The notes under the pieces: generated by a model
What the model was told of the DNA's origin: nothing
What the model saw: only the letters and a program-made list of their open reading frames with translations
Database searches by the model: none
Source of the DNA: Ectocarpus siliculosus
Taxonomy: Eukaryota > Sar > Phaeophyceae > Ectocarpales > Ectocarpaceae
Assembly: GCA_000310025.1 (NCBI GenBank)
Contig: FN649734.1
Span: forward strand, 5,907,681-5,971,680
Direction: 5' to 3'
Length of the DNA stretch: 64,000 bases
Program-made: the position numbers and the translations under genes
Shown: positions 42,517 through 57,685 of the stretch, one piece after another
Layout of the letters: each line of letters opens with the position of its first letter
How positions within the stretch are numbered: the first letter of the stretch is position 1

Positions 42517-42812
42517 TTTAAAGGAGGTGAAGCCGTGGGCGGTAGCTTGCTCCTAGAGATAGATGAAGGTAGGTTCTGTCGTTGACACACTTGTCCACGA
42601 CCACGTTGAGATGGGAAAGTTGCTTGTTATTGCTGAGAGACGATCAGCAAGGGTCTGAGGTGAAGTGGGGATCCAACTTCACCTCAGGGGGTACGCAGAC
42701 GAGACAAATCCTAAGAGGGTAGGTGTCTGAAGGGTATACCTCCTGGGACCGACCCACATCCTATCAACAACAAAATATACCCTATTTAAGCTAGCAGCCA
42801 CACTCCTTAGCA
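42517..42812 (-). repeat. 3' LTR of the gypsy element
   Basis: It matches 56,543-56,838 with about three internal differences (GGTAGGTGTCTG/GGTAGATGTCTG, CAACAACAAAAT/CAACAATAAAAT, CACTCCTTA/CCCCTTA). The outer end reads TTTAAAGG where the other LTR reads TGCGAAGG, so the terminal TG has been lost or altered here. Confidence 0.9.
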
Positions 42813-44215
42813 CTAGCCCACCCTGAATATCATATATGCAGATTCTATAATCAAATCAATGCTCAAATCCTAAAGGCTACAATAAAGATGTTAGCTGACG
42901 GTTGATGCTCATGAATCGAAGATATGACTCTTCACAAAACATCCAAAAGAAGGGTGAGTTGTAGAAATATCCCGAATCAACCCCCACACCATCATTGAGA
43001 CGAAAGAAGGATCGGACGGTCACGAGACGACACATCGACATCTCAATGACAACGCTCATACCAATGAAGGGATAAAGCCAAAAATATATATGTAGTGCTG
43101 CAGAGCACGCTATCCCCGACAGACGACGACGAGGGAAATAAAATCAGAACCGAAACGCCACACACCACTCTTTACGCGCATCCGCGCGTATGACAAACGG
43201 GAGGAATGAGGGTGACTACCCGAGAGAGTCCCAAAATACGGCAACAAAACTTAAAACCCAAGCAAATTTCCGAACGAATACGGCCTTTGATACTGGACGC
43301 GACGTAAAGGGAAAAAATCAACGCAATCTAGGAAAGCGTCAAGGAAGGGCAGGAGAAATGAACGACAGGCAAACACACTGAGAACTATTGCCAGCGTGTC
43401 AAGGAACCCAAACCGTATAGAGAGGCGGCCACGGCAAGACGCCTGAGAAGCGATCTGACGAACCTCGCCCTGGCGCGCTGGCGATGCACAACACAGAAAA
43501 ACAGAAACACCGAAAAGCCGCAGAGATACACACAACAACGCAACGACTCAAGGGCTCGACGATGATGAAGGCGTCGCCTGCATGTAGCGATGACGGAGAC
43601 GAAGTAGAACGAAGAGTGGATGACGACGAAAGTCCACGGGAGAAGACGACGCAACGGGATGGTAGTCCGAAGTAATAGGCCTAGACGACACTTCTGCGGC
43701 ACGGTGGAGCTAAAGGATAAAAAAATTAGTTGGCCAAAGACGAACCAAGGGAACACGGGGAACTCGGTGTCCACCTGGTCAGAGGCAAGCTACACCGACG
43801 GAACTTGGGGAACTCTTTTTCCAAGTGTTCAGAGGTAAACAACACCGACGAAACTTGGGGAACTCTTTTTCCAAGTATTCAGAGGGAAACAACACCGACG
43901 AAACTTGGGGAACTCCTTTTCCAAGTGTTCAGAGATAAACCACACAGAGGAAACTTCGGAGGAAGCCCTTCAGAAAGACCAAATACGAACAGAACTGAAA
44001 ACCGAGAGAGAACTTGCATCCAGGTCGCGGCAATTCACTGATTCAGACGAATGCATGCAACAAGGAAGAAGAATCATTCGACACCGCGTGTCTTGAGACG
44101 GTGTTGGCCCTGCACCCAAACACAAAATAAACCAACAAGGAAATAGACAAAAAAAAAAAAAAAAAAAAAACAAACAGAACCCAAGATAGACCAACTCGTA
44201 CATGAAACTACGACG
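42813..44215 (-). other. 3' untranslated part of the gypsy element
   Basis: No conserved coding region. It contains a 50-bp tandem repeat (43,745-43,965) and a run of about 20 A on the plus strand (44,151-44,170), T in element sense. No convincing polypurine tract was found beside the LTR; the best candidate is CAGGGTGGG (minus sense) near 42,815-42,825. Confidence 0.6.
43745..43965 (+). repeat. 50-bp tandem repeat in the gypsy 3' region
   Basis: AACTTGGGGAACTC starts at 43802, 43852 and 43902, a strict 50-bp period, with a diverged unit before (43,750). Each unit also has CCAAGTNTTCAGAG and ACACCGACG. Confidence 0.92.
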
Positions 44216-45520
44216 CTAAGAAGAAATGTTGGGAACAGCCGACGGTAAGGAGTCAGTGATGAGAGGAGTGCGACCCCGGGCGTCGCCCAGAGGGCGCGAG
44301 CGATGTTTTTCTGAACACCACGATCCACAGACGGCGTCCACGGCGGTGGAGTAGAGGTGCGCAGGCACAGGGAGAACGCTGGGACCCGGGTCATCCAGAA
44401 ATCGAACGATGTACGAGCCGTCCTGATGGGCACCAATACGTCCGGTCCACCACAATCCATCGCGGGCCTTGTACCATAGCCGCGCTCCCACCGGAAGGGG
44501 CGAAATGCTGAAGCGACGGAGCCAAGTCGCGTGAAGCACAAGATCAGCCCCAGGAGGCAAATAGCGTTCTCCACGATTCCGGGCTAGCTCTCGTTGTGCC
44601 GCGCGTGTCCGAGCCACTCGATACGTACGGTTTCCCTGCTTGCTTTGGCAGACCTCTCGAGACCAGTACAAGAGGATGTGTCGACGGAATTGATCGAGGT
44701 CGGACTCCCGTTCCCAGGAAGGAGTAGTCAGGCCTAGCCAATGTGTCTGGTACAGGACAGCGAGAACGCCGCTACGGCCCCGCACCAGTTGATGTCCCGA
44801 AATGTAGTCGACCTCGAGGCGCCCGACAGGCACCGACACATCATCTGCGGTGACGTGAAACGGTGGACATTTATCGCCGAAAGAGTGCAGGACATAACGC
44901 GAAAGCTCAGCGGGCAGAGATTGTGGCAGGTCGTCCGTCTCGTATGGATTGCGACAGGGCTTGCAACGAAGGACAGACACGCGACATCGAGCTGCTGGGC
45001 CGGAAAGATCGGAAGGCAGGTCCAGGTAGAGGAGTTTACGCGCCAACGGGCTTCCATCTGGGGTGGCGTCGGCCGAAGCGGGACCCACCGCAAGAACTTT
45101 GTCAGGCCCCGTCCAGGAAAGCGCGAATTTGGCCTTGAGCACCTGTTGATCCGTGTCCTTCCGCACACCCTGTCGAATTGTAGCAGCCGTGTTGTAGGCC
45201 CAAGCCCACCCGCCAACAGTAAATTGCGGGAGCTTGTGGATGGCGTCCAGCAGGGATGAATTACGGCGTTCGACTCGCGAAATCTTCAGGGCGTTGTACT
45301 CACGGACCAGGTCGTAGGCCCGGCGCTGGCGATCGACAGCCAAGTTGCAATACTCGAGTTGGTCGCGGGCCAAGCTTTGATGACCACCTACCGTGGGATG
45401 ATCGAAAACCGAAAGCGGAAGCCGCGGAATGCGTCCTATGTGGATCTCGTTCGGCGCCAATCCAGTCGACTGGTTCACGGAATTGTTGTAGGCAAACTCA
45501 ACGTGCGGGAGATGTACATC
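44216..45520 (-). CDS. integrase C-terminus with chromodomain-like and Tudor-like segments
   Basis: Continues the integrase frame after the TAG at 45521-45523. It starts with the end of the catalytic core (VEFAYNNSVNQSTGLAPNEI), then the integrase C-terminal barrel region (AKFALSWTGPDKVL). A chromodomain-like segment lies at about 44,830-44,665: GRLEVDYISGHQLVRGR, then LYQTHWLGL and SWERESDLD, the layout of a chromodomain with a W-G/L-L / W-E core. At about 44,492-44,350, VGARLWYKARDGLWWTGRIG then SYIVRFLDD resembles a Tudor/agenet-type barrel. Chromovirus chromodomains steer integration to marked chromatin; the Tudor-like addition could do likewise, which is inference. The ORF ends at 44216. 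Confidence 0.8.
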   Translation of the reverse strand, partial: DVHLPHVEFAYNNSVNQSTGLAPNEIHIGRIPRLPLSVFDHPTVGGHQSLARDQLEYCNLAVDRQRRAYDLVREYNALKISRVERRNSSLLDAIHKLPQFTVGGWAWAYNTAATIRQGVRKDTDQQVLKAKFALSWTGPDKVLAVGPASADATPDGSPLARKLLYLDLPSDLSGPAARCRVSVLRCKPCRNPYETDDLPQSLPAELSRYVLHSFGDKCPPFHVTADDVSVPVGRLEVDYISGHQLVRGRSGVLAVLYQTHWLGLTTPSWERESDLDQFRRHILLYWSREVCQSKQGNRTYRVARTRAAQRELARNRGERYLPPGADLVLHATWLRRFSISPLPVGARLWYKARDGLWWTGRIGAHQDGSYIVRFLDDPGPSVLPVPAHLYSTAVDAVCGSWCSEKHRSRPLGDARGRTPLITDSLPSAVPNISS

Positions 45521-47260
45521 CTAATCGTTTTGCTGTTCGTTGACGACTACCGCAAGCATCTGAGCCATCGTGTGATTGACGCGCTCCGTGCCGCCGTTAG
45601 GTTGCGGGTGGTAGGAGCTGGTGGTGACCTTCTTAAATTTCATCACCTCGTAGATCGCCATGGAGAGCTTCGAGCAGAAATGCAGTCCATTGTCCGACAA
45701 TAAGGTAGTCGGACATCCCCACTTGGTCATGTACTGGTTGACGAAGATGTGAGCCGTCCCTTTCGCCGTAAATTCCGCCGCTGTAACCGCGAACATGTCG
45801 GCTCTCCGGCTGAAACGGTCTGTGAACAACAAAATGTAGGAGTTGCCCTTGGCAGTCACGGGCAGGGGTCCGAAGAAGTCGACGCCGACAACCGTACCAG
45901 GCCCCTGTGGGAATGGCATAGCGATGACGGGCCACCGAGCGGTTTGACGCGAAGTCTTGCGAGCTTGACACACCAAACACGCTCGAAGCCACCAGCGCAC
46001 GGAACGATCCAGACCAATCCACCAGTAGAAACGCTCAAGCAGACGTTGTGTACGATGAACACCGAGATGGATGGACGCGGCGGTATGGCAGGCATGAAGG
46101 ACCCACGAACGCATCAGCATGGGCACGTATACACGGGGCACACCAGTATCCGGTAGACGAGTGGTCCTGCCGCCAGAGCGCCCGATCGGCGAAGGCGCCG
46201 ATTTATGTACGAGGAGGGTGACCTTATCATCGGTCGTGTGCAGTCTGGTTTTCGCCGCCAACGCAAGTACATCGTCCAACCTAGGGGAGCGGAGCGGGGC
46301 ACTAAGGGAGAGCAAGTCAGAAGGGGGTGGGGAGGGAGAGCCGCGAGACAGAAAACGCATAGCCACCGCGCATTCGCTCTCCCGCTGTTGCTCCCTAGCC
46401 CAATCCACCGTGCTGAAGCTCTGAACACAAGCTCGCAAGTGTGAGGGGTCCAAGTCAGTCGGCGCCAACCTAGAGTCAGGCGATCCCACGGAAGAGGCTG
46501 TAGAACGAGGAGCTTCAGCGACTGGGGAAGTTGCAGACAGCGGTGTCGCCCGCGAAGGAGGCATCGGGAGGGGCGAAGTCCCCGGCGAAACCTGCATAGA
46601 GGGCAAAACCGAGGATGCAGGGCGCTCCGATGCCGGCGGAGGCACCGGTGGCGCAGAGGCAGTCGACGAAAACGCCGACGTTGGCGTCTCGGATGGCGGC
46701 AGGAGGCGCGCGCCGGTTCGGATGGTCTTGTTTGTCGAGCGGAACCTGCTAGGACGACGGGCAGTTGACGATGCCCGAGGGACGATGGTAGCCCGCGGCT
46801 GGCGTCCGAAATAAGTGGGACCGGCGACGGTGCCTCCGGAAGCAGCGGTGGTCTTGGCCCGAGTCCGTGAAGAAATGAGCGGTCCCCGCTCCGGAAGCGG
46901 AGACAGGACGTGCACATATCTAGTCGCCACAGACGCGGCAGGAGATATCCCGCGGGACGTAGCTGGAGCCAAAGAGGAAACAGGCACCGGAGACCCGGGA
47001 ACATGCGAGACCACGAAGACTCCCGAAGACCTCCGAGAATCCTTGTAAGCAATCGGCGAGTCTGTTCTAACATCCAGCCGGGTCGGGTGATGACGGCGAA
47101 AATCCCCAAAATCGGAGGGCTGTAACGCTGGGGGTGAAAAGACTCCCGCCAAGCAGGGAGGGCGGAGCCCACCCAAACCTGACCTCCGGCGTAGACGACG
47201 AGTGATAGTTGAGTCCACAAGCCCGAATGAGGAAGACACCCGCTTGATCGACACCATCAA
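45521..47260 (-). CDS. integrase (zinc finger and D,D35E core), truncated by a TAG
   Basis: A long Pro/Ser/Ala-rich lead is followed by the HHCC zinc region (HACHTAASIHLGVHRTQR ... CLVCQARK) and the catalytic core: first Asp in VGVDFFGP (codon at 45,878-45,880), second in LSDNGLHF (45,692-45,694), Glu in GTERVNH (45,584-45,586), giving the canonical 35-residue spacing. Integrase inserts the cDNA into chromosomes. The frame ends at TAG 45523-45521 and continues in the same frame in the next ORF, so one nonsense codon splits the protein. It sits in a different frame from RT; a +1 step within 47,260-47,067 would join them. Confidence 0.92.
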   Translation of the reverse strand: MMVSIKRVSSSFGLVDSTITRRLRRRSGLGGLRPPCLAGVFSPPALQPSDFGDFRRHHPTRLDVRTDSPIAYKDSRRSSGVFVVSHVPGSPVPVSSLAPATSRGISPAASVATRYVHVLSPLPERGPLISSRTRAKTTAASGGTVAGPTYFGRQPRATIVPRASSTARRPSRFRSTNKTIRTGARLLPPSETPTSAFSSTASAPPVPPPASERPASSVLPSMQVSPGTSPLPMPPSRATPLSATSPVAEAPRSTASSVGSPDSRLAPTDLDPSHLRACVQSFSTVDWAREQQRESECAVAMRFLSRGSPSPPPSDLLSLSAPLRSPRLDDVLALAAKTRLHTTDDKVTLLVHKSAPSPIGRSGGRTTRLPDTGVPRVYVPMLMRSWVLHACHTAASIHLGVHRTQRLLERFYWWIGLDRSVRWWLRACLVCQARKTSRQTARWPVIAMPFPQGPGTVVGVDFFGPLPVTAKGNSYILLFTDRFSRRADMFAVTAAEFTAKGTAHIFVNQYMTKWGCPTTLLSDNGLHFCSKLSMAIYEVMKFKKVTTSSYHPQPNGGTERVNHTMAQMLAVVVNEQQND

Positions 47261-49022
47261 TGCAATCGGGGCCGGTTGTGTCCGTGTCTTGTGCTGGTAA
47301 AGGCAGGCGCGAAAGGAAATCCGCGTTGCCGTTTGCCGAACCTTTCCGATATTTCAGGGTGTAGGTGAAGTTGGACAAGAATTCGAGCCATCGTTGCACC
47401 CTGGCGTTGTGTTCTCCAACCTTGCCAATGCTCTCTAAGGCTTTGTGGTCTGAATAGATGATGAACTTGGTTGACCACAAGTAACCCCGAAGGCGCTTAA
47501 TGGCCCAAACAATGCCACCAGCTTCCAGATCCAGAACGGTCCAGTTCCGCTCCGCCGGAAGAGTAGCGCGGCTGATGTACACAATGGGTCTTACCGAGCC
47601 ATCGAGTTGTTCCTGTTCCAGGGAGGCTCCAAAGCCGTCGATGCACGCGTCGGAGCACAAACGGAGAGGGCGGCTGTTGTCCTCGACCGCAGCCCAATCC
47701 GGGAAGACCAAAATCGGGGGACGCGCGAGTTCGCTCAACAACGTTTTGACAACCTTGACCATGCTCGGGGTGTACTTGAAGGGGACGCCTTGTTTGAGAA
47801 GAGAGTTGAGAGGCCGCACCTTGGTGGCGAGATTCTGAAGGAATTTCCGGTAGTAGCTGAGGCCACCGAGAAGGCCCCTAAGCTGCTTAACATTCGTCGG
47901 CGGCGGCATGTGCGTGAGCGCCCGAACCTTGACGCCATCAGGGCTAACACCGGCCGGGGAGATGGTGTGACCGAGGAAATTGGCGTGGGTGGCGCCGACA
48001 CGAGCCTTCCCCGGAGACAGCTTGAGGTTGTACTGGCGCAGCCGTTTGAAAAACTCTATCATGTTGAGCACGTGTCCCAGAGGTTCCTCATCGAAACAGA
48101 TAACATCATCCAGATATGCAAGCACACGCTCCAGACCGTGCACCACTCTGTTGATGACCTTGACGAACCAAGACGGGCTCGCGTTGGCTCCTTGCGGCAT
48201 CCGAAGCCATTCGAACAATTGCGTGGGAGTGCAAAAGGCGGTGAGCGGGACAGTGTCTTCGTCACAAACGATCTGGTGGAAGGCCGAGTTGAGGTCGAAG
48301 ATGGAGAACACTTTCCCGGTGTACAGAGAATCCAAGATACCGTCCACCCGAGGGAGAGGTTGTCCATCCAAGTCCACCAGGGCGTTGAGACGCTTGTAGT
48401 TGACGGTGATGCGAACCGACCCGTCTTTCTTGGGGATGACGACCAGAGGAGAAGCCCAGGGAGAAGTGGAATGCTGGATGAGCCCTGCCGCCAAATACTG
48501 GTCCAACACGGCATCCATTTTCTTCTGCATTAACGGGTTAATACGATACGGGCGTGATGCGACGGGCTTCGTCCCGGCGGGGACAGAAAGAGTGAATGGC
48601 ATGACGGTGCAGGAACCAAAATCGGTTTTCGAAGTAGAGAGCACGTCGGAATACTCAACAAGGGCGTCAGCCAAACGATCAATGGCCGCCGGCGTCCATC
48701 CCGGGTTGTGTAGATCGAAAGCGAGGTCGTGCATATGTGCGGGCAGCCTAGCCCACAAGCGCGGAAAGCTGGAGCGCTGTGCCTCGGAGAAACGGTCAAG
48801 TAGTTCTTGTGGAGGCGGCTTCGGAGGAGGCGGGGCGGAGGCTGGGTCCGGAGAGCGGCGAGTCCCGAACTTGGGGCCAACGGCGTTGACCCGATGTGGT
48901 GTGTGGAGGACGTGGGGCCGGTAGGAATCGAAGATGGTGCCGTCTTCAGGGTTTCTACCGGCACTCGTAATAGCGGCGCAGCAGACACTCCAAGAACGTC
49001 TCCCTGCTCCAATTCGGCACAA
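47067..49022 (-). CDS. reverse transcriptase and RNase H
   Basis: The RT domain covers about 48,560-47,800: ASPLVVIPKKDGSVRITVNY, FSIFDLNSAFHQI (catalytic Asp), RMPQGANASP, then YLDD at 48,106-48,117 holding the metal-binding Asp pair. The connection has FLGHTISPAGV. RNase H follows (about 47,690-47,400) with CSDACIDGFGASL, RNWTVLDLEAGGIVWAI and IIYSDHKALESI, giving the D-E-D set. These copy the element RNA and remove it. The frame is -1 relative to the protease ORF, with overlap 49,022-48,530; I see no standard X-XXY-YYZ slip site around 48,930-48,970, so the shift may be an indel or another recoding signal. No stop interrupts the RT/RNase H itself. Confidence 0.95.
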   Translation of the reverse strand: MCRIGAGRRSWSVCCAAITSAGRNPEDGTIFDSYRPHVLHTPHRVNAVGPKFGTRRSPDPASAPPPPKPPPQELLDRFSEAQRSSFPRLWARLPAHMHDLAFDLHNPGWTPAAIDRLADALVEYSDVLSTSKTDFGSCTVMPFTLSVPAGTKPVASRPYRINPLMQKKMDAVLDQYLAAGLIQHSTSPWASPLVVIPKKDGSVRITVNYKRLNALVDLDGQPLPRVDGILDSLYTGKVFSIFDLNSAFHQIVCDEDTVPLTAFCTPTQLFEWLRMPQGANASPSWFVKVINRVVHGLERVLAYLDDVICFDEEPLGHVLNMIEFFKRLRQYNLKLSPGKARVGATHANFLGHTISPAGVSPDGVKVRALTHMPPPTNVKQLRGLLGGLSYYRKFLQNLATKVRPLNSLLKQGVPFKYTPSMVKVVKTLLSELARPPILVFPDWAAVEDNSRPLRLCSDACIDGFGASLEQEQLDGSVRPIVYISRATLPAERNWTVLDLEAGGIVWAIKRLRGYLWSTKFIIYSDHKALESIGKVGEHNARVQRWLEFLSNFTYTLKYRKGSANGNADFLSRLPLPAQDTDTTGPDCIDGVDQAGVFLIRACGLNYHSSSTPEVRFGWAPPSLLGGSLFTPSVTALRFWGFSPSSPDPAGC

Positions 49023-50212
49023 CCTGCAAGGGGAATACGCTGGAGACCATTGGAAACAAATGCATCGGGGGACGAAAGCGCACCCACTGCGGGTCGGAAC
49101 GATACGAGATACTCGCCGATCAGCGCAGGCATGCCAGAAGAACGGACGAGGTCCACCTCAACCAGAGCAGGCTCCGATCCCAAGGAAATGCCCGAGCTCC
49201 CTGCATATTTTAGGTGAAACGAAGAGGCAGGAGCGTCGTCGTGTGTAGCGTAAACACAAGCGCCAGCGGTGAAACATGGAGAGAGCGTGAGCTCGCCCAT
49301 AACCCGGCCGTCGGGTCCAGGGTGGGGGAGGGTGGTGAACACGCGAGAGTTGAACCGCACCCAGCTATCACGACCCAGAAGCACGGCGTGCCCCATGGCG
49401 GCATCTGGAACAACGCAGGCCCAGACCGCCAAAGAAGCGGTAGTTCGAGCTCCATAGAGAAAGTTAACGGTGAGACGAACTGACCGAGTGGTCATAAGGG
49501 CGGGTCCATCACCAAACCCACCCAAGCGACGAGAGGGCGAAACACGAACGCTGCCAGCTGTCAAGGCTCCAGCGGCGATCATGGCGGTGACCACGGAGTC
49601 GGACACAAAAGACGCAGGAGACCCAGAGTCCAGCAGTGCCACTCGCGCGAGTTGAGAAGTGGCTGTAGGTCCTCCATGCAGCAGAACCCGGGTGGTGTAA
49701 GAGTCCGAGTCCAACAGGAGCGTGTCGCCGACCAGATCGGGCCCGTGTTCCAGAAGAGAAGGTTGGTCTGCACAAGCGGAGGTCGAGGCCACCAGATGAA
49801 CACCAGGAGCATGGTCCCCCGGAGCGTCCAAATGGAGACAAGCTGGGTCTTCACCCCGGTCCTCCCGTGACGACGAACCGGCCGCAGTAGCAACCTCGTG
49901 GATGCGTCTACGGCCATGGGGAAGAGGCTGCGAAATGGGGGGGGTGGGAGAAGTGGAGGCGGGGAGAGCTTCGCCAGACAGGGGATGATCACGCAAAAGG
50001 CGCCGAACTTCCATCAAAGCTTTTCCCAACAAGTTTTTACCGCTAGACGCCCACTTGGATGAAACGCTAGCCTCCGGAAAGCATGCAGACATGCCGATAC
50101 CCCAAACACGATCAAAGGGGCTGGCTTCCGCAAGGAGGCGGGTACCCGTCTCCAGTAAATGTTGTTTCATGTCGTGGTTTTGAGCGAATTTGGCATACGA
50201 CCCCGTAAGCAC
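48530..50212 (-). CDS. NADAR C-terminal half plus aspartic protease
   Basis: The first residues, EEIVLTGSYAKFAQN, HLLETG, EASPFDRVWGIGMS and NLLGKALMEVRRLL (down to about 49,990), are the C-terminal half of a NADAR domain whose N-terminal half ends the preceding ORF. A low-complexity linker follows. Then comes the retropepsin: VALLDSGSPASFV with the catalytic DSG at 49,622-49,630, and downstream hydrophobic strands (GHAVLLGRDSWVRFN). The protease would cut the polyprotein. Same frame as Gag; separated from the previous ORF only by TGA at 50222-50224. Confidence 0.85.
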   Translation of the reverse strand: MLTGSYAKFAQNHDMKQHLLETGTRLLAEASPFDRVWGIGMSACFPEASVSSKWASSGKNLLGKALMEVRRLLRDHPLSGEALPASTSPTPPISQPLPHGRRRIHEVATAAGSSSREDRGEDPACLHLDAPGDHAPGVHLVASTSACADQPSLLEHGPDLVGDTLLLDSDSYTTRVLLHGGPTATSQLARVALLDSGSPASFVSDSVVTAMIAAGALTAGSVRVSPSRRLGGFGDGPALMTTRSVRLTVNFLYGARTTASLAVWACVVPDAAMGHAVLLGRDSWVRFNSRVFTTLPHPGPDGRVMGELTLSPCFTAGACVYATHDDAPASSFHLKYAGSSGISLGSEPALVEVDLVRSSGMPALIGEYLVSFRPAVGALSSPDAFVSNGLQRIPLAGCAELEQGDVLGVSAAPLLRVPVETLKTAPSSIPTGPTSSTHHIGSTPLAPSSGLAALRTQPPPRLLRSRLHKNYLTVSPRHSAPAFRACGLGCPHICTTSLSIYTTRDGRRRPLIVWLTPLLSIPTCSLLRKPILVPAPSCHSLFLSPPGRSPSHHARIVLTR

Positions 50213-50221
50213 GATCTCTTC

Positions 50222-51346
50222 TCAACGACGCTCCCATTCAGCATAGTCAAAAGGACGTACGTTACGACCCAAGTACTTGTGTGTCTTAGGATCGGTTGCA
50301 GCCATGATTTTGTCATACGACGTCATATCCCCAAACAACTTCGCTTTTTCAGACATCATAAATTGCTCACCACATGAATAACGTACCCCCAGTACGTCAA
50401 AAGCCGAGGGAGTCCATTGCGAGAACACAGACGGAGGTTTCCAGAAGAGGAGGACGTCATCCGAAGCGTACTCGCATTTGTCATCAAACGGCGGGGCCGG
50501 TGCAGGGCGGAGGGGCAAAGAGCGGGCACCAGGCACAGGCGGGATTGGGCCAAGCGGACGGGTCCTCATCTCCGACGGGGAGGACCCAGAAAGCGAGGGA
50601 GGAGCGGGCGAAGTCGCTCCGGTCCATGATCCGGAGGGTGGCCTACGGGCGGCGGCTCCGGCGAGGTCAATGTTAGCAGAGGCCATTCGGCTATGAGAGA
50701 CCTGTTCGTTAGGAGAAGTCTTTCCTGCGGCAGACGGATGTTTGTGAATGGACGCAGGGCGCTCTGGACTACTCCCCCGTGACAAAGGAACCGAACCTTC
50801 CACAGAACGGTGGGCACTACCATCCGATCCCGATGGCAGTGGTGCAGTCAGCACGTTGTGGGCAGCAGAGGAAGACGCATTCGTATCAGGTGCTGTCACA
50901 CGGGGGCAGCGGACGGTCGAAGACAACGAAAGCTGCGAAAGAGAAGGAGAATCGACGGGGTCCCCGACGAGTGTAGAAGAAGGCTCGTGTGCTATCCGAG
51001 AAGAGGCCCGGCTGACAACACCAGGAGAGTCTTGGCGAACAGTAGTAGACGAGGTTCTTGTTCCTTCTGTAACCCGAGACGGCGAGGTGAGCAGGGGTGA
51101 ACCGCTCGACGTCTTACCTCCCTGTCGCCCACACCACAAAGGTGGTGCCGGAGTGGGTTTGTCACGTCCAATATCAGCAGACGATGAGGTGGGTGACGAG
51201 GAGGCGGGCCGAGAAACTAGATGTGATTTGTGGGCGCGGGGAGTATCCAAAGAAGTAGGCTGTACACGCACATCTTGGGAGACTCCAAAAGGGTGCACGG
51301 TGGTTGCTGTCGACGGTAGTACCGGCTGAACTCCGCCATCGACATG
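50222..51346 (-). CDS. linker ORF ending in the N-terminal half of a NADAR domain
   Basis: The frame is open directly after the TGA that ends Gag (51347). About 270 residues are Ser/Pro/Thr-rich and probably disordered. The last 85 residues are a NADAR (YbiA/DUF1768) start: LLFWKPPSVFSQWTPSAF, GVRYSCGEQFMMSEKAKLFG, IMAATDPKTHKYLGRNVRPF and DYAEWERR. The conserved Glu-Gln in CGEQ and the KA-LFGD stretch are present. NADAR enzymes act on N-glycosidic bonds of ADP-ribose-type and riboflavin-pathway compounds. TGA (50222-50224) then cuts the domain in the middle of a helix; the same frame resumes with EEIV, so one codon change separates this from an uninterrupted domain. Confidence 0.85.
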   Translation of the reverse strand, partial: HVDGGVQPVLPSTATTVHPFGVSQDVRVQPTSLDTPRAHKSHLVSRPASSSPTSSSADIGRDKPTPAPPLWCGRQGGKTSSGSPLLTSPSRVTEGTRTSSTTVRQDSPGVVSRASSRIAHEPSSTLVGDPVDSPSLSQLSLSSTVRCPRVTAPDTNASSSAAHNVLTAPLPSGSDGSAHRSVEGSVPLSRGSSPERPASIHKHPSAAGKTSPNEQVSHSRMASANIDLAGAAARRPPSGSWTGATSPAPPSLSGSSPSEMRTRPLGPIPPVPGARSLPLRPAPAPPFDDKCEYASDDVLLFWKPPSVFSQWTPSAFDVLGVRYSCGEQFMMSEKAKLFGDMTSYDKIMAATDPKTHKYLGRNVRPFDYAEWERR

Positions 51347-52483
51347 TCATTTCTTACCCTTCCAGCCCCTCTTAGCCGAAGTGGAAGTCTCCGACGAGGA
51401 TTCCGTGTGTGAGGACTGTTTCATGTCCGATGTGTCAGATGAACGGCGGGCGCGTCCCGAGGAGTGAGCACGGGGTGGGTTGCGTCCTGTAGGGCGTCTA
51501 TACGAGGTCATGCGCTTTTTCCATCGACTCCAAAGTGTGGGATCTTTTTCCATGCAGAGCTTGATGTCATTGTTAAGCAGGTCTGTGGCGTTAATGGACC
51601 CACGAGTACAAGATTTGAAGGAGTGGTCTTCCCCTAAGCAGTTGAGGCACTTGCCCTTGTACAGCCGAAGCGCGTTGCGGCGGTCTTCAGCCGAGACCAA
51701 GGGGGTGAACAATGGCGGATCATTCTTGGTTAGAGCCATCTCACTAGCGACATTGTACACCTCTTGGAAGTGTCCTTGCAACGGCCAATTGCTGTAGTGC
51801 AACAGAAAAGGGTCCCGATCATCATTAGGTAGAGGGTCAACACTCATCACCGCAGCCGAAGAACCTCGGCTCCACGAAGGGGTCACCGACGAACGCAACG
51901 CCGAAGAAGCTACAGCACGCGAAACAGCAGACGAACTCCTAGCATTCGTGGAAGACACCGAAAAAAAATCGTCCCCATGTACCGCCGGCGTGTGCGCGAA
52001 TGCACGCTTGTCCAACACATCCCACATATCGTCCAAGCACAAAGCATGTCGCCCAAAAGGGGCTTCCATGGAGAGCTGCTCATCCTTGTACACCTGTCCA
52101 GACACTACGGGAAACTGCTTCAACATGGAGTCTCGAACAGCTATCTGCACTTGCGCATCCGAAGGCTTGAACACGTGGTGAGAAACCATGACGGTCATGG
52201 CCAGAGCCTTATAGCGACGAATGTATTCTCCGTAAGTCTCGCCGGTGGACACGCCAAAACTACGAAGACGATCAATCCCCGAGCTCTTGTCTTGAGTGTC
52301 CCAGGCAGCCGCCAATTTCTGGATGAAGAACGCGTACGTCGAGGGCCCGGCCGGTTCCTTGCGCAGATGGTTTTCTACCTGTTGGAAAGTGGCATCAAGA
52401 AATTCCGTGGCACGGTTGGTGGTTTGACCTTCAACGACAGCAGCACGAACACGTTTGCGCAACAACGGAAGCCATCCTGCGAC
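51347..52483 (-). CDS. Gag: capsid-like region and CCHC zinc knuckle
   Basis: The capsid-like helical part (VENHLRKEP, FIQKLAAAW, GETYGEYIRRYKALAMTV, QIAVRDSMLKQFP) resembles Ty3/gypsy Gag. Near 51,655-51,610 a zinc knuckle CLNCLGEDHSFKSC fits C-X2-C-X4-H-X4-C and would bind RNA. A basic Lys/Arg/Ser tail follows to the TGA at 51347. The frame is the same as the upstream RS-rich ORF, separated by TGA 52484-52486, and also the same as the NADAR/protease ORFs. Confidence 0.85.
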   Translation of the reverse strand, partial: VAGWLPLLRKRVRAAVVEGQTTNRATEFLDATFQQVENHLRKEPAGPSTYAFFIQKLAAAWDTQDKSSGIDRLRSFGVSTGETYGEYIRRYKALAMTVMVSHHVFKPSDAQVQIAVRDSMLKQFPVVSGQVYKDEQLSMEAPFGRHALCLDDMWDVLDKRAFAHTPAVHGDDFFSVSSTNARSSSAVSRAVASSALRSSVTPSWSRGSSAAVMSVDPLPNDDRDPFLLHYSNWPLQGHFQEVYNVASEMALTKNDPPLFTPLVSAEDRRNALRLYKGKCLNCLGEDHSFKSCTRGSINATDLLNNDIKLCMEKDPTLWSRWKKRMTSYRRPTGRNPPRAHSSGRARRSSDTSDMKQSSHTESSSETSTSAKRGWKGKK

Positions 52484-56542: not shown

Positions 56543-56838
56543 TGCGAAGGAGGTGAAGCCGTGGGCGGTAGCTTGCTCCTAGAGATAGATGAAGGTAGGT
56601 TCTGTCGTTGACACACTTGTCCACGACCACGTTGAGATGGGAAAGTTGCTTGTTATTGCTGAGAGACGATCAGCAAGGGTCTGAGGTGAAGTGGGGATCC
56701 AACTTCACCTCAGGGGGTACGCAGACGAGACAAATCCTAAGAGGGTAGATGTCTGAAGGGTATACCTCCTGGGACCGACCCACATCCTATCAACAATAAA
56801 ATATACCCTATTTAAGCTAGCAGCCACACCCCTTAACA
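56543..56838 (-). repeat. 5' LTR of the gypsy element
   Basis: On the plus strand it begins TGCGAAGG and ends TTAACA, giving the TG...CA termini. It contains GTGAAGTGG...CACCTCAGG-type inverted bases (TTCACCTCAG / CTGAGGTGAA near 56,680-56,712), able to form a hairpin. Position of a promoter in it was not resolved. Confidence 0.92.
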
Positions 56839-56842
56839 GTAT

Positions 56843-57685
56843 CCCCCATTTGGGTGGGGCTCCCCTGCCAGTATATCAGGTTGAAGTTCCCTAGTGCTGT
56901 GGCTGTTGAATACGAAATCTGAAGTATCTCCGACCCAGGTGCGGAAATAAAATCATCGGTTGGTATTTCGTAGCGCTTTTTCAAGGCAACCCGGTGCCAT
57001 CTCCCCGACTCCGGTGGCGGTGCGGAAATATTGCAATTTCATTGATTTCGTAGCTCTTTCAAGGTACCCCGGTGCGATCTCTCCGACCGGTGCGATGCAA
57101 AGAAATACACACAGCAGCAGCGGGCTTACTATACAACTGCTGTATGCAATAATGGCCTAGACTATGGTGCTCGGCGGTGTTGTTTGCACGCACCCCCCAC
57201 GGTGCCATCTCTCCGCCGCTTACGATAGTGTATCTACAACCCTCCAGGTACTCGAGGTATACTGTACGTGTGTAGTGTCCATGTTTGTTTACCGTTGGTT
57301 GTTGCTGGCTGGCAGATCATCTCGGTTAGCAACAACAACGTACATTTGTTTACAGGGTTATAGGCGCCGTTGTACTGTATGTAGGAGCTTTAGCTTTCCA
57401 CGCATCGCTCTTTTTCTTTTTCGTTTTCGTTTTTCGTTTTCTTTTCTCTTTTCTTCACATCCGTTCAACGTTGTTGATTTCTATTGACTTGCGGATCCCT
57501 TGGGGCCAGTTTGTTTGAGCGTACCTTTTTAGGGTAAGTTAGCCTGTGACCACGGGAATCGACCGCGTCATGTGCTCGATCAGTACGGACGTATGAAGGT
57601 ATAGTCCACTGGGAAGAGAGAAATCGGAACGGTTTTTAATGTGAAGACAACCACAACAACAACAACAACAATGTGTTAGCGAGTC
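56843..57685. repeat. spacer with CCGGTGCxATCTCTCCGAC repeats and repeat copy B3
   Basis: The motif CCCGGTGC(C/G)ATCTC(T/C)CCGAC recurs at about 56,990, 57,070 and 57,200, with TTTCGTAGC between copies. The same motif recurs at 63,905-64,000. At 57,475-57,665 lies repeat copy B3 (partners at 34,857 and 38,215), ending in an (AAC)n run. Confidence 0.6.

Follow-up and report, generated by a model that had tools for sequence, protein, structure and literature searches.

A lineage of Ty3/gypsy retroelements that carries a NADAR domain is already known from Ectocarpus, having been reported in 2025 with Gypsy-12_Ec32 as an example (PMC12477816). That report suggests that NADAR processes RNA intermediates; its blastp searches outside Ectocarpus returned almost only bacterial matches, and horizontal transfer was suggested. 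Its main text makes no mention of readthrough, a stop codon or a frameshift. The P. nicotianae NADAR (8bau) hydrolyses guanine-ADPr, and Glu as against Asp or His at its position 125 serves as a subfamily criterion (PMC11543638). Positive-strand RNA viruses, too, have NADAR domains in their polyproteins. Macromolecular adducts are favoured for the NADARs of eukaryotic RNA viruses by PMC9503650, whose text makes no mention of retroelements, retrotransposons, Metaviridae or Ortervirales. Two further systems bear on the gag-pol junction. MLV has a UAG with a downstream pseudoknot, and its readthrough is established (PMC5009743). Tca2 has a UGA with a potential pseudoknot, and the junction alone was insufficient for readthrough in S. 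cerevisiae (PMC2194720).

Here we analyse an element of this kind in a window of 64,000 nucleotides from Ectocarpus siliculosus. A sequence-only reading of the window knew of no description of NADAR as a standard component of Ty3/gypsy polyproteins, a remark that the 2025 report makes outdated. What we add is measured constraint on the domain, conservation of its active site, stand-alone brown-algal genes as its best-scoring non-element relatives, and, where gag meets pol, a UGA-C followed by a candidate pseudoknot.

Results

A broken Ty3/gypsy copy with NADAR in Pol

The element spans ~14.3 kb on the minus strand, in the order Gag CCHC knuckle, stop, low-complexity linker, NADAR, D[ST]G motif, RT, RNase H and integrase (Table 1). 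RT, RNase H and integrase were placed by Pfam, and the knuckle and protease by motif only; Pfam searches of the Gag end and of the post-NADAR region returned no match. The protease motif lies ~270 aa downstream of NADAR. The element thus has the Ty3/gypsy order of protease (by motif), RT, RNase H and integrase (with rve under its cut-off) and is flanked by LTRs. Gag is closed by the TGA at 51347-51349 in the same frame as NADAR. We find the window copy to be broken because a TGA interrupts NADAR, RT lies in a different frame from NADAR, and the integrase frame is closed by a stop at 45521-45523. Its insertion is fairly young, since the LTRs align without gaps at 98% identity; three of their six differences over 299 nt cluster at one edge and perhaps lie outside the LTR. 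Inspection of the element flanks by eye revealed no clear target-site duplication. Two other features were seen: a Tudor-like stretch, recognized by eye downstream of the weak chromodomain-like match within 44216-45478 (minus strand), and tandem repeats with 50-nt spacing at 43744-43943, in the stretch that separates Pol from the 3' LTR.

Table 1 Features of the NADAR element, in window positions and in element order.
Feature	Position	Strand	Evidence
5' LTR	56547..56845	-	Repeat of 299 nt with 98% identity to the 3' LTR; ends approximate
End of Gag with CCHC knuckle CLNCLGEDHSFKSC	51347..52465	-	ORF and motif; knuckle motif also in family copies
Gag stop TGA-C with candidate stem and pseudoknot	51298..51349	-	Window letters; other copies
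Low-complexity linker, first part of Pol	50447..51346	-	ORF list; conservation along Pol
NADAR (YbiA-type) domain	49991..50446	-	PF08719 match; in-frame TGA at 50222-50224
Post-NADAR region with D-S-G protease motif (ALLDSGSPASF)	48530..49990	-	Motif, also in family copies
RT and RNase H	47067..49022	-	PF00078 3.3e-26; PF17917 2.4e-28
Integrase H2C2 and core	45521..47260	-	PF17921 1.3e-13; rve 29.7 bits, below its cut-off of 32.6
Integrase C-terminal part	44216..45478	-	Weak chromodomain-like PF00385, 12.1 bits, cut-off 25.1
3' LTR	42521..42819	-	Repeat pair with 56547..56845; exact ends approximate

The sequence-only reading had recognized the block order of NADAR across two ORFs in one frame, and profile search confirmed it. 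With X at the single stop, the joined frame (C9:5957671-5958126) matched positions 2-163 of the 163 in PF08719 with 159.9 bits, against a cut-off of 35.1, which places it in the NADAR superfamily. The stop separates the two ORFs; scored singly, the halves that flank it reached 61.5 and 85.4 bits, and the ORF coordinates put both in the same frame. The reading had placed the domain between Gag and protease; that order holds, with the refinement that the gag stop precedes NADAR, which belongs to Pol.

NADAR elements are numerous in the genome

We searched the 189-Mb genome (492 contigs) for NADAR and scored 150 of 230 candidates. All 150 exceeded the PF08719 cut-off, so the genome holds at least 150 matches, and by count from the resulting table at least 129 of these contain no stop. 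Around at least 24 of the 129 runs an open frame of 2000 aa or more. Two such frames are implausibly long: 10887 aa at C3:3913787-3914242 and 6365 aa at C489:435177-435536, perhaps masked stretches read as open. A second search used the RT-RNase H of the window copy, and scoring 109 of 603 candidates yielded 111 rows, which count rows and not elements because two broken elements are each represented by two rows. NADAR lies upstream on the same strand in 97 of the 111 listed, at a distance of 608-2634 nt (median 1564) from RT; the other 14 have no upstream match and may adjoin unscored or decayed NADARs. The profile match and the many further copies exclude both outcomes that the reading had named as refuting it, a lack of any significant match and a domain confined to this one copy.

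Ectocarpus sp. CCAP 1310/34 and environmental assemblies likewise hold proteins that combine NADAR with RT. One of them, P0123 (2170 aa), carries NADAR, RT, RNase H and the integrase zinc-binding domain above their cut-offs, and rve just under. Public assemblies also hold proteins that join NADAR with an ADP-ribosylglycohydrolase (PF03747; P0130-P0134), with PF01661 in addition in P0130 and PF10021 in P0131-P0134.

NADAR is constrained almost as strongly as RT

For codon work, copies were drawn from the 108 NADAR rows that match from profile position 1 or 2 through the last. We fetched 59 (ranks 1-40, ranks 101-108 and 11 of ranks 81-100, where three rows were left out for carrying a stop) and added the window copy, itself among the 108; the resulting 60 are biased to high Pfam scores. 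Six were dropped for stops or frameshifts (L009, L020, L052, L055, L056 and the window copy). A threshold of 85% identity divided the 54 usable copies into six families, A to F, with 11, 12, 13, 2, 11 and 5 members, and the window copy belongs by sequence to family A.

Family representatives share 53-78% amino-acid identity, with dN of 0.17-0.48 and dS at least 2.46 or saturated; because of this saturation, dN/dS between families can only be bounded. Within families, pooled pN/pS was 0.17-0.49. We then compared four copies, one each from families A, B, C and E, along the length of Pol. Mean pairwise identity was 0.56-0.62 in NADAR and 0.56-0.73 in RT, against 0.11-0.30 in the linker before NADAR, 0.23 over the 50 residues after it and 0.42-0.55 in the protease region. 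Over these pairs, pN/pS was 0.28-0.39 for NADAR and 0.24-0.37 for RT, against 0.66-0.86 in the linker upstream of NADAR. Together, these data establish NADAR as a true, selected Pol domain of a brown-algal Ty3/gypsy lineage under constraint close to that on RT, in answer to the selection test that the reading had proposed. Chance insertion or artefact was considered and is ruled out by copy number, by the position of NADAR upstream of RT and by constraint on the domain beside decayed linkers.

Most active-site residues and a predicted fold match YbiA-type NADARs

Residue numbers below are those of 8bau, transferred by alignment with a derived offset (PMC11543638). The catalytic Glu and Lys are present in nearly all of the 54 copies (E43 in 52, K50 in 50), and departures at either site are confined to single copies. 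Also conserved are K75 (52/54), G78 (54/54), R79 (54/54), V81 (52/54), W89 (52/54), R93 (53/54), D130 (52/54) and W133 (54/54). Y84 is replaced by F in 53 copies, and D86, a ligand contact in 8bau, is not conserved. Position 125 is Glu in all 54, which assigns the domain to the YbiA subfamily and separates it from the DarT1-associated antitoxins of the BC4488 type, which have Asp there.

A structure prediction, another check that the reading had proposed, agrees. The domain modelled is that of a relative, P0001 (301 residues, from Ectocarpus sp. CCAP 1310/34), with 93% identity over NADAR. In its AlphaFold model the block means of pLDDT across the domain are 95-99, apart from one of 88 at the domain end. 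The best PDB match is 8bau (E 8.8e-12, TM 0.79 on target), followed by YbiA 2b3w (E 5.4e-7), and these two were the sole PDB matches with E at or below 0.001, consistent with a YbiA-like fold. The element NADAR is thus probably an enzyme, judging by the residues it keeps.

A UGA-C and a candidate pseudoknot mark the gag-pol junction

Gag and Pol lie in one frame in families A-E, with a single UGA-C between them, 292-444 codons upstream of NADAR; the window copy has this arrangement too. No UGA-C was found at the junction in the one family F copy examined. With L055 and L056 left out, 26 of 45 copies from families A-E have the UGA-C at the corresponding position; L028 has an unrelated TGA, and the remaining 18 have no TGA at that offset.

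Downstream of the UGA-C, a stem, together with pairings between its loop and the sequence further on (each 7 bp long in one family B copy), forms a candidate pseudoknot in five families, found in the window copy and in L022, L027, L011, L037 and L033. The spacer measures 8 nt in families A-D, and 6 or 9 nt in the best fit for E. We scored 11 sequences with a search designed post hoc, after inspecting sequences by eye. All 11 contained a candidate, and shuffled sequences reached its score in 1-17 of 300 cases. Positions elsewhere in the same locus reached it at 0-3 of 186 in families B-E and 13-16 of 186 in family A, where the pseudoknot does not stand out. The UGA-C and candidate pseudoknot suggest a possible readthrough signal, by which NADAR would be made through stop-codon readthrough and packaged with RT.

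Stand-alone brown-algal genes are the best-scoring relatives outside the elements

Among named relatives outside the elements, the top scores belong to four stand-alone proteins, from Ectocarpus sp. 13 AM-2016, E. fasciculatus, Pylaiella and Scytosiphon (179-197 bits, 52-59% identity), each with a Cys-rich N-terminus. Since these genes score best outside the elements, acquisition directly from bacteria is not favoured, yet unnamed environmental proteins, of which many may be bacterial, score as high as 173 bits with identities of up to 56% (named bacteria ~140 bits), and a deeper bacterial source, as suggested in PMC12477816, is possible. The window's own genome carries a split stand-alone gene at C24:2125206-2127066 (minus strand), detected as two matches to the orthologue-like protein P0004, whose N-terminus is Cys-rich, at 81% over residues 1-103 and 92% over residues 178-241; the middle is not among the matches listed. 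The separation of the matches suggests that this host gene, which is among the closest non-element relatives of Pol NADAR, contains introns. A 391-aa Ectocarpus DUF1768 protein, Esi0017_0056, was tested in Arabidopsis (PMC7922944) and may be a host gene or an element copy.

The deeper branches of the trees are weak. In a careful tree of 52 chosen rows, host genes nest inside element-labelled rows (branch 94/89). A quick tree of 80 chosen rows, with labels covering the six families and one Ectocarpus protein, sets host and element rows on opposite sides of one branch. Capture from the host and domestication by it are therefore both possible, as a topology with the elements in one clade without host genes was not rejected (p-AU 0.40). 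That the stand-alone genes are domesticated element NADARs, and not the source of the element domain, is a genuine possibility that we place a little short of even. The nesting in the 52-row tree argues for it; the separate element clade that survives testing argues against it, as do the 89/75 of the branch uniting host genes and elements and the labels themselves. Among the ten public rows labelled as elements, RT was seen in P0123 and P0125 only, and a protease-like motif in P0127; the others, including P0143 and P0152, which lie nearest the host genes, were labelled by resemblance.

Discussion

The capture of NADAR by a Ty3/gypsy lineage, proposed by the sequence-only reading from a single interrupted copy, gains support from many copies in six families, from constraint and from an active site that is mostly kept. 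As to function, the most likely role is that of an ADP-ribose hydrolase of the guanine type carried in the particle. Ribosomes would read through the gag stop, and NADAR would be made only then, as the UGA-C and candidate pseudoknot hint; it would consequently enter particles beside RT in low, Pol-like amounts. There it may hydrolyse ADP-ribose from guanine bases, as the P. nicotianae relative does, and so clear adducts from element RNA or new cDNA, whether these stem from host defence or from stress metabolism. We give this account as a whole, from selected Pol domain to adduct removal in the particle, about even chances. By likeness to the P. nicotianae enzyme, ADP-ribose removal that counters host defence is plausible. 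A more specific version, in which the packaged eraser reverses host ADP-ribosylation of element RNA or cDNA laid down by an otherwise unknown brown-algal anti-transposon defence and was in turn domesticated by the algae as a gene of the cell, seems to us quite improbable. PARP-type transferases are represented in the genome by four short, exon-size matches, weak at 26-33 bits against a cut-off of 26.7.

Other readings differ in what the domain does, if anything. NADAR might act on small metabolites in place of ADP-ribosylated nucleic acid, its substrates being ADPr derivatives or RNA-repair or riboflavin-pathway intermediates, as for E. coli YbiA, and its benefit metabolic or counter-signalling. 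The YbiA fold and the retained YbiA-type glutamate fit this, and PMC9503650 favours soluble ADPr derivatives for viral, above all phage, NADARs; however, a Pol domain that is confined to particles in low amount would be a poor site for a bulk metabolic enzyme, and the closest solved relative acts on guanine-ADPr. We regard the metabolite reading as unlikely, if the most serious of these competitors. The domain could instead be non-enzymatic, for example an RNA- or ADPr-binding module or a structural part of Gag-Pol. Pol proteins are known to capture binding modules. Chromatin readers are described in PMC12477816, and one 8bau ligand contact has drifted, all of which would suit such a role; the near-invariance of E43, K50 and E125 speaks against it and leaves it, in our estimate, a poor prospect. 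Least credible of all is a passenger captured by chance, whose apparent conservation reflects the youth of the copies. Many copies within families are indeed near identical, and the window LTRs differ by ~2%; yet the family representatives have diverged far in amino-acid sequence with synonymous sites saturated, and the linkers beside NADAR, unlike NADAR itself, are no longer similar.

A retroelement that keeps a selected ADP-ribosyl hydrolase would imply that ADP-ribosylation, or an ADPr-type metabolite, obstructs brown-algal retrotransposition. Such an obstacle would tie the NAD/ADPr conflict of phages and RNA viruses to the control of transposable elements, and the stand-alone host gene closest to element NADAR offers a second handle on the question.

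The families described here are, on comparison by description, possibly those of the published lineage with Gypsy-12_Ec32, and where the blastp search in PMC12477816 found almost only bacteria, stand-alone brown-algal genes score best outside elements in our searches. The junction resembles those of Tca2 (UGA) and MLV (UAG) in having a stop between gag and pol followed by a pseudoknot, here a candidate; readthrough is established in MLV and failed from the Tca2 junction alone in S. cerevisiae. Element NADAR shares its fold and most active-site residues with the P. nicotianae enzyme, which differs in being a stand-alone protein with inserted residues near its end and in its D86 and Y84. NADAR-bearing RNA viruses use an RdRp and the Ectocarpus element is an LTR retroelement, but both keep an ADPr-handling domain inside a replication polyprotein (PMC9503650).
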